Positions 37,689 through 39,854 of a DNA stretch of 64,000 nt are shown here, piece by piece. Source of the stretch: Methanobacteriota archaeon (GTDB lineage: Archaea; JAADCQ01; Methanopyri; Methanopyrales; Methanopyraceae). The DNA lies in assembly GCA_027064425.1 (NCBI GenBank), contig JAMOPO010000027.1, positions 179,353 to 243,352 on the forward strand, given 5' to 3'. Below the pieces are notes generated by a model, which worked only from the letters and a program-made list of their open reading frames with translations, was not told the origin of the DNA and ran no database searches. Positions within the stretch are counted from its first letter, which is position 1, and every line of letters begins with the position of its first letter. A program made the position numbers and the translations under genes.

Positions 37689-37715
37689 CCGCGGGGCTGG
37701 CGTGAGCCCCCATCC

Positions 37716-37750
37716 CCCGCCCCCTGGGCGTTTCGCCCTTCGGGGGCGGG
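37716..37750 (-). promoter_or_regulatory. SECIS-like element in the hdrA 3' UTR
   Basis: Read on the minus strand: CCCGCCCCC pairs with GGGGGCGGG (nine base pairs), then the asymmetric internal loop GAA opposite A, then GGGCG/CGCCC closing an AAA loop. Lower stem, GAA/A bulge, short GC stem and small loop is the archaeal SECIS shape. It starts 28 bases after the hdrA stop codon, the usual 3' position in archaea, and fits the two in-frame TGA codons. Confidence 0.8.
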
Positions 37751-37777
37751 TTCATCGGGGGAGGGTGACCGTGAGCC

Positions 37778-39790
37778 TTACTCCTCCTCTTCCTCCTCGC
37801 TGGTCGCCTCCTCGAGCAGTGCCTCGAGCTGCGGCATCAGCTGCTCGTCCCGGTAGTACCGCAGCTGCATGGCGCCGCTCGGACACGCCGCGGCGCACTG
37901 GCCGCAGCCCTCGCAGGCGACCTCCTCGACCTCGGCGACCTTCTTGCCGTCCTTCTCGACGATCTCGATGGCGTCGAACGGGCACACCTGCGCGCACGCG
38001 CCGCAGCCGCCGCAGACGTCCTCGTCGACGGTGGCCGTGATCAGCTCGATCTCGACCTTGCCCTGCGACATCGGGATGCTGGCCTCGCTGGCCGCACCCT
38101 TCGCCTGGGCCACCGTGTCCGGGATGTCCTTCGGACCCTGCGCTACGCCGGCGATCTGCACGCCGCGGACCTTCGTGCTGACCGGCTCCAGCTTCGGGTG
38201 CAGCTCCTTGAAGAACCCGTCCGGCGACCGGTCGATGCCCAGCATGTCGGCGAGCTTGCTGTAGGTCTCCTCCGGTGCGACCAGCGCGCAGCCGAGGACG
38301 ACCAGGTCCGCCTCGATCTCCAGCGGCTCGCCGGTGAGCGTGTCCTCGACGCGCACGATGAGGTTCTTGGTCTCCGGGTCCTCGATGATCTCCGCCGGCC
38401 GGCCGCGGATGAACCGCACGCCGAACTGCTTCTGCGCGCGCTCGTAGTACTCCTCGTAGCCCTTACCGAACGCTCGCACGTCCATGTAGCAGCAGTAGAC
38501 CTCCGCCTCCGGGTTGTGCTGCTTGATCAGCTGCGCGTTCTTGAGGATGAACATGCAGCAGATCCTGCTGCAGTACGCGTTACCCTTCTCCTCCTTGCCC
38601 GGGCACCGCGAGCCCACGCAGTGGATGAACACGATCCGCTCCGGCTCCTTGCCGTCGCTCGGCCGGATCACGTGGCCCTCCGTCGGACCCGCCGGGTTCA
38701 GCATCCGCTCGAGCTCCAGCGTGGTGATCACGTTGTCGTACTTGCCGTAGCCGTACTCCTCGAGCTGGCTCGGATCGAACTCCTCGTAGCCGGTGGCGAC
38801 GATGATCGTGCCCACCTTGAGCCGGATCTCCTCCGGCTCCTGGTCGAAGTCGATCGCCGGCGGGTCCTGCGGGCACGCCTCCTCGCACAGCCGGCACTCG
38901 ATGCAGTGCTCGCGGTCGATCGTGTAGACCAGCGGCATCGCCTGCGGGAACGGCACGTAGATCGCCTTCCTGGTGCCGATTCCGAGGTCGAACTCGTTGG
39001 GCACCTCGATCGGGCAGACCTCGGCGCAGACGCCGCAGCCCGTGCACGCCTCCTCGTCCACGTACCGCGGCTTCTTCTCGATGGTGACCTCGAAGTTGCC
39101 GATGTAACCGTCGATCTCCTTGACCTCGGCGTAGGTGATCAGCTCGATGTTCGGGTGGTTACCGACCTGCACCATCTTCGGCGCTAGGATTCACATGGCG
39201 CAGTCGTCCGTCGGGAACGTCTTCGCCAGCCGCGCCATGTTGCCGCCGATCGTCGGCTCCTTCTCGACCAGGTACACCTTGAAGCCCTGGTCCGCCAGGT
39301 CCAGCGCCGCCTGGATGCCCGCGATACCGCCACCGATGATGAGCACGCTGTCCTCGACCTCGACCTCCTTGGTGGGCACGTCCTCGAGCTTGCGCGCCCG
39401 CTCGACCGCCGCGCGGACCAGGGTCTTGGCCTTCTCCGTGGCCTTCTCCGGCTCGTCCAGGTGCACGAACGAGCAGTGCTCCCGGATGTTGACCATCTCC
39501 ATGTAGTACGGTGACAGCCCTGCCTCCTTGACGCAGTTCCTGAACGTGTTCTCGTGGATCTTCGGCGTGCAGGCGACGACCACGACGCGGTCCAGGTCGT
39601 GCTCCTTGATCGCCTCCTGGATCTTCTCCTGCCCTGGATCCGAGCAGAAGAACGGGTAGTCCGTCGCGTACACGACGCCCGGCAGCTGCTTAGCGTACTC
39701 CACGACCTCCTCGACGTCTACCACTGCCTTGATGTTGACGCCTCAGTGGCACACGAACACTCCGACCCTGACGTCGTCACTCTCGCTCAC
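37778..39790 (-). CDS. hdrA: Heterodisulfide reductase subunit A, two in-frame TGA (selenocysteine) codons
   Basis: Flavin and Fe-S subunit of soluble CoM-S-S-CoB heterodisulfide reductase, the electron-bifurcating end of methanogenesis. Two TGA codons divide the frame: 39745-39743 in VCH-U-GVNI (residue 16, where other HdrAs have Cys) and 39193-39191 in DCAM-U-ILAPKM (residue 200, second position of a CxxC). Reading both as Sec gives 670 residues, from GTG 39790 with GGGGGTGA six bases upstream. Also seen: FAD motif [16 protein letters not shown] near residue 150 and four [4Fe-4S] motifs ([48 protein letters not shown]). A SECIS-like hairpin follows the stop. Confidence 0.93.
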
Positions 39791-39854
39791 TCGTTCTCAC
39801 CCCCTTCCCGTTGTGAGAGACCCTCCCACCTCCACGCCCGCTCCCCAGCCGCGG

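Follow-up and report, generated by a model that had tools for sequence, protein, structure and literature searches.

HdrA is an established selenoprotein family, entered in the table of a 2026 review with a CxxU motif and one selenocysteine (Sec) (PMC13188914), and the protein has been described as possessing an N-terminal Fe-S cluster domain (PMC12054007). Multiple Sec residues are recorded for FrhD/VhuD (PMC13188914). Like the gene analysed here, these archaeal selenoproteins contain two UGA codons and belong to the same Hdr-hydrogenase system, but they are different proteins from HdrA and their two Sec residues have already been described (legend to Fig. S5 of PMC9622424; PMC13188914). In the parts of the Asgard survey PMC11227280 on which we draw, Sec use among archaea is limited to Methanococcales, Methanopyrus and Asgard, Asgard SECIS elements are reported to be eukaryote-like, and a multi-Sec HdrA is not mentioned. 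Here, we analyse a 64-kb stretch of DNA (the window) from a 57-contig draft, the single assembly of its species (G000), which was compared with four other Methanopyrus genomes. This thermophilic methanogen seems to decode two nominal stop codons of hdrA, the gene of an energy-metabolism enzyme, as the rare amino acid selenocysteine.

The hdrA frame and its product

The gene and the elements at its 5′ end comprise:

37778–39790, minus strand: hdrA coding sequence, GTG start at 39790, TAA stop at 37780–37778, 670 aa, two in-frame TGA codons
39743–39745, minus strand: TGA at codon 16 (VCH-U-GVNI), putative additional Sec site; the remaining four Methanopyrus genomes read TGC here
39191–39193, minus strand: TGA codon 200 (DCAM-U-ILAPKM), classical HdrA selenocysteine, conserved; X in PDB 9sfi chain A
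39791–39807, minus strand: RBS-like GGGGGTGA, immediately 5′ of the GTG start; kept in G001, G002 and G004

When TGA is translated as U, hdrA forms one open frame of 670 codons with internal TGA only at codons 16 and 200, as the sequence-only reading had proposed in naming 39745–39743 and 39193–39191 as the sole interruptions. That reading had also expected automatic annotation to split the gene, and a mechanical ORF caller does break it into pieces of 177 and 465 aa, which serves as a warning that annotation pipelines break multi-UGA genes of this kind. The NCBIfam HdrA2/HdrA models span residues 8–667, with E-values down to 3.8e-281 and scores below the equivalog cut-offs, while PDB HdrA chains align to residues 6–664. 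The product is an HdrA by full-length homology, which covers the N-terminal Fe-S domain, the thioredoxin-reductase/FAD domain, and the inserted and C-terminal ferredoxin domains. In PDB 9sfi chain A, the residue aligned with codon 200 is a non-standard X, and that aligned with codon 16 is a cysteine. Misassembly of hdrA was considered and judged unlikely, the gene being embedded in a contig of 243 kb, with 24 kb separating it from the contig end.

SECIS element and Sec machinery

Directly 3′ of the hdrA stop codon, folding revealed a hairpin, not mentioned in the sequence-only reading, in which the core lies within an extended stem flanked by AUGA and GA:

37707–37761, minus strand: archaeal SECIS hairpin in the 3′ UTR, comprising AUGA, 9-bp stem, GAA/A internal loop, 5-bp stem, AAA loop and GA
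37716–37750, minus strand: SECIS core CCCGCCCCC-GAA-GGGCG-AAA-CGCCC-A-GGGGGCGGG, located by pattern scan

With its GAA/A internal loop, the hairpin fits the archaeal SECIS model, and an [A/G]UGA_[G/A]A motif is given for Methanopyrus hdrA SECIS elements in the portion of PMC11227280 cited here. The pattern has this sole match on both strands of the window and no match in 20 shuffles, in which base pairs were shuffled. Rfam at gathering thresholds reported just two tRNAs and no SECIS in the window, the element being found by folding and pattern scan. The element is near-identical in 5/5 Methanopyrus genomes, the HdrA genes of the others having, like that of G000, one archaeal SECIS in the 3′ UTR. 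UGA16 and UGA200 lie ~2.0 kb and ~1.4 kb upstream of the hairpin, respectively.

Components of the Sec machinery are present in the G000 genome, namely a tRNA-Sec that scores above the Rfam cut-off, SecS, and SelD, itself with one TGA. The genome also encodes VhuD with two TGA codons and two molybdopterin-family proteins, fdhA-like and fwdB-like, with one TGA each; hairpins of matching pattern occur at the vhuD, selD, fwdB and fdhA-like loci. A HesB-like selenoprotein is absent from all five Methanopyrus genomes.

Codons 16 and 200 in Methanopyrus and its nearest relatives

Codon 200 is TGA in 5/5 Methanopyrus genomes and in 15 further Sec-HdrA orthologues, forming the motif C197-x-x-U200. The HdrAs of the other Methanopyrus genomes and of Sec-using methanogens are orthologous to the G000 protein and share its Sec at the CxxU position, but they differ from it in having one Sec and Cys16. 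The four other Methanopyrus genomes keep TGA200 and have TGC at codon 16, including the nearest relative, G004 (dS 0.155), and the 15 further single-TGA HdrAs (69–75% identity) likewise combine TGA200 with Cys16. Since archaeal Sec use is limited to Methanococcales, Methanopyrus and Asgard in the material cited from PMC11227280, these 15 orthologues are probably from Methanococcales. TGA16 is therefore unique to G000 among the five Methanopyrus genomes and the 15 nearest other Sec-HdrAs, and places the gene outside the single-Sec methanogen HdrA class (CxxU only, Cys16). The idea that all Methanopyrus HdrAs contain two Sec residues was rejected, the others having one. That HdrA is a selenoprotein of several methanogens, usually with one Sec, had been stated beforehand and matches both the single-TGA relatives and the table of PMC13188914.

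Both TGA codons lie where homologues have cysteine. Among 109 full-length HdrA loci, 78 have Cys and 31 have TGA at position 16, and 57 have TGA and 52 have Cys at position 200, with nothing else at either site, which agrees with the earlier proposal that both codons replace conserved cysteines.

We estimate a probability of about 0.85 that both TGAs specify selenocysteine, with U200 the ancestral Sec and U16 a recent Cys-to-Sec gain in a gene that already carried a SECIS. U200, in the CxxU motif of the thioredoxin-reductase-like domain, would date back to the ancestor of the methanogen Sec-HdrA clade, and U16 would have been gained recently in the Methanopyrus lineage of G000 through a single TGC-to-TGA change. 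The combination of Cys16 and TGA200 in the other Methanopyrus genomes, the 15 orthologues and 9sfi points to TGA200 as ancestral and TGA16 as new, and Cys16 in those same four genomes and 15 orthologues identifies TGA16 as a lineage-specific change. Because hdrA already possessed a SECIS, such a change would constitute a Cys-to-Sec replacement rather than a nonsense mutation. From these features we infer that both UGA codons are decoded as Sec. The counterpoint is that TGA16 is lacking in every one of the four other Methanopyrus genomes, the nearest included, and in the next 15 closest Sec-HdrAs, and that a single 57-contig draft represents the species.

Sequencing error and nonsense mutation as alternatives

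Of the competing explanations, the one that survives best accepts TGA200 as a true Sec and attributes TGA16 to a mistake in sequencing or consensus calling, or to a variant carried by a minority strain, the real codon being TGC. That the four other Methanopyrus genomes and a further 15 Sec-HdrAs have Cys16, that the assembly is divided into 57 contigs and that one C-to-A change suffices all speak for it. Against it stands a disruption scan in which an AV19-like genome was compared with 183 kb of the contig, yielding ~106 kb of aligned conserved coding sequence. Within this sequence, TGA16 of hdrA is the only premature stop in a well-conserved stretch and no frameshift was flagged; two other stop calls fall in N-terminal sequence that aligns poorly and probably lies 5′ of the true start codons. 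In addition, 236 single-base changes could create a stop in the hdrA ORF, 31 of which convert a Cys codon to TGA and just one of which gives TGA16, and this codon coincides with the commonest TGA site after 200 in the HdrAs of distant archaea (see below). We regard an error at this codon as improbable.

It is still harder to credit that TGA16 is genuine nonsense, terminating the protein after residue 15 in a dying gene or leaving an N-terminally shortened HdrA made from a downstream start such as the GTG at 39724: although an in-frame GTG lies seven codons 3′ of TGA16 and dN/dS against G004 (0.25) exceeds that of other pairs (0.04–0.11; 0.09 against the AV19-like genome), the remainder of the frame and the SECIS are intact, the start codon and GGGGGTGA RBS that precede TGA16 are conserved in each genome in which they are readable (G001, G002 and G004), a shortened HdrA would be without two of the four invariant N-terminal cysteines, and the assembly holds no full-length backup HdrA. 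Frameshift or decay of hdrA, which the sequence-only reading had called unlikely, was rejected, since neither a frameshift nor another well-supported premature stop was seen in the window alone or in the ~106 kb of conserved coding sequence compared. Together, the scan, the substitution count, the conserved start and RBS, and the dN/dS values argue strongly, if not conclusively, against error or pseudogenisation.

The same second site in distant archaea

HdrA genes were surveyed in 297 genomes and then in the 227-genome phylum of one match, revealing many HdrAs that contain between two and four TGA codons; no HdrA relatives were found in viral contigs. In 36 loci that were fetched because of their reported TGAs, so that the counts are not phylum frequencies, TGA is placed at codon 200 (34 loci), 16 (30), 74 (five), 49 (one) and 299 (one), always at Cys positions. 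Site 16 is thus the most frequent TGA site after 200. Two loci have their sole TGA at the extreme C-terminal end, where it resembles a normal stop. In 30 genes (among loci L187–L198, L230 and L233–L255) TGA occupies exactly codons 16 and 200, as in G000; some carry further TGAs at 74, 49 or 299, whereas G000 has just the two. The view that residue 16 is a less usual place for a second Sec therefore holds for methanogens but not for these distant archaea. Given the restriction of archaeal Sec use noted above from PMC11227280, the latter are most likely Asgard.

These multi-TGA proteins are only ~48–57% identical to that of G000 and have a separate origin in a tree of 77 HdrA proteins, built by a quick method with SH-aLRT support. 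The G000 gene is nested inside Methanopyrus, within a Cys16 clade and far from the TGA16 groups, indicating that its TGA16 state arose independently. The label at site 16 needs six changes on this tree, and within the distant archaea closely related genes differ there between Cys and TGA. The pattern suggests that site 16 acts as a Cys/Sec switch of which the Methanopyrus case is an independent instance. As judged from the sequences compared, the G000 gene is the only putative two-Sec HdrA seen here in a methanogen and would be convergent with those of the distant archaea. Mariotti and co-workers reportedly found, in 2016, multiple Sec residues in three of five Lokiarchaeota selenoprotein families, so the literature may already contain a multi-Sec HdrA from outside the methanogens.

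Two of the distant loci contain four TGA codons each, L191 (genome G279) at 16, 49, 74 and 200 and L189 (G225) at 16, 74, 200 and 299. Separately, four HdrA-like genes of the distant phylum (L205, L208, L209 and L210) are reported with one in-frame TAG, possibly encoding pyrrolysine or acting as a terminal stop.

Residue 16 and the N-terminal Fe-S cluster

Throughout the 109 full-length HdrAs, positions 14, 16, 49 and 74 carry nothing but Cys or TGA (one residue at 49 being unreadable), while the neighbouring Cys 86 and 106 vary. This invariance, together with the N-terminal Fe-S domain described for HdrA, suggests that the four residues are likely ligands of the N-terminal cluster. As one of the four, U16 is probably a selenolate ligand of the [4Fe-4S] cluster, and it may affect the redox potential. 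In L191, TGA stands at 16, 49 and 74, three of the four candidate ligand positions.

With modest confidence, we favour the view that Sec serves, convergently and reversibly, to ligate the [4Fe-4S] cluster in the N-terminal domain of HdrA, site 16 having been recruited independently in a methanogen and in distant archaea. Once a SECIS is present in the gene, a single base change could turn any Cys-ligand codon into Sec, and extra Sec residues could accumulate through point mutation. If so, the N-terminal domain of HdrA would house an Fe-S cluster ligated by selenolate. Sec at an invariant N-terminal Cys, recent in a methanogen and recurrent elsewhere, suggests that it can replace Cys as a cluster ligand, here in an electron-bifurcating enzyme, and the G000 species and its closest relatives form a natural Cys/Sec pair for measuring the effect.

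The Cys-type HdrA copy and related loci

The sole Cys-type HdrA in the G000 assembly comprises ~170 residues, being cut near residue 176 and fused to a fwdB fragment (L107, G000:C49:1-7419). Relative to the AV19-like genome, ~5.6 kb is missing; the junction lies 490 bp from a contig end and reflects either a real deletion or a chimeric contig end or other assembly fault. The two-UGA hdrA thus looks like the sole full-length HdrA in the assembly. If the truncation is real, it is the only full-length copy and the organism, which by its genus would be a hydrogenotrophic methanogen, would depend on reading through both UGA codons.

Related loci vary elsewhere in the genus. The Cys-type hdrA of G002 (L014/L101, G002:C1 near 559500) is frameshifted, with two overlapping frames at residues 101–123, and its Cys-type mvhD is likewise in two frames; the Se-independent backup genes of this genome seem to be decaying. 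At the same Cys-type locus, fwdB carries a TGA and shares 99.8% identity across 1290 bp with the Sec-type copy found at another site (L158 and L160), having likely been overwritten by gene conversion. Finally, VhuD of G003 (L120, G003:C1:15373-15741) has one TGA compared with two in G000, G001 and G002, a possible further Cys/Sec difference within the genus.
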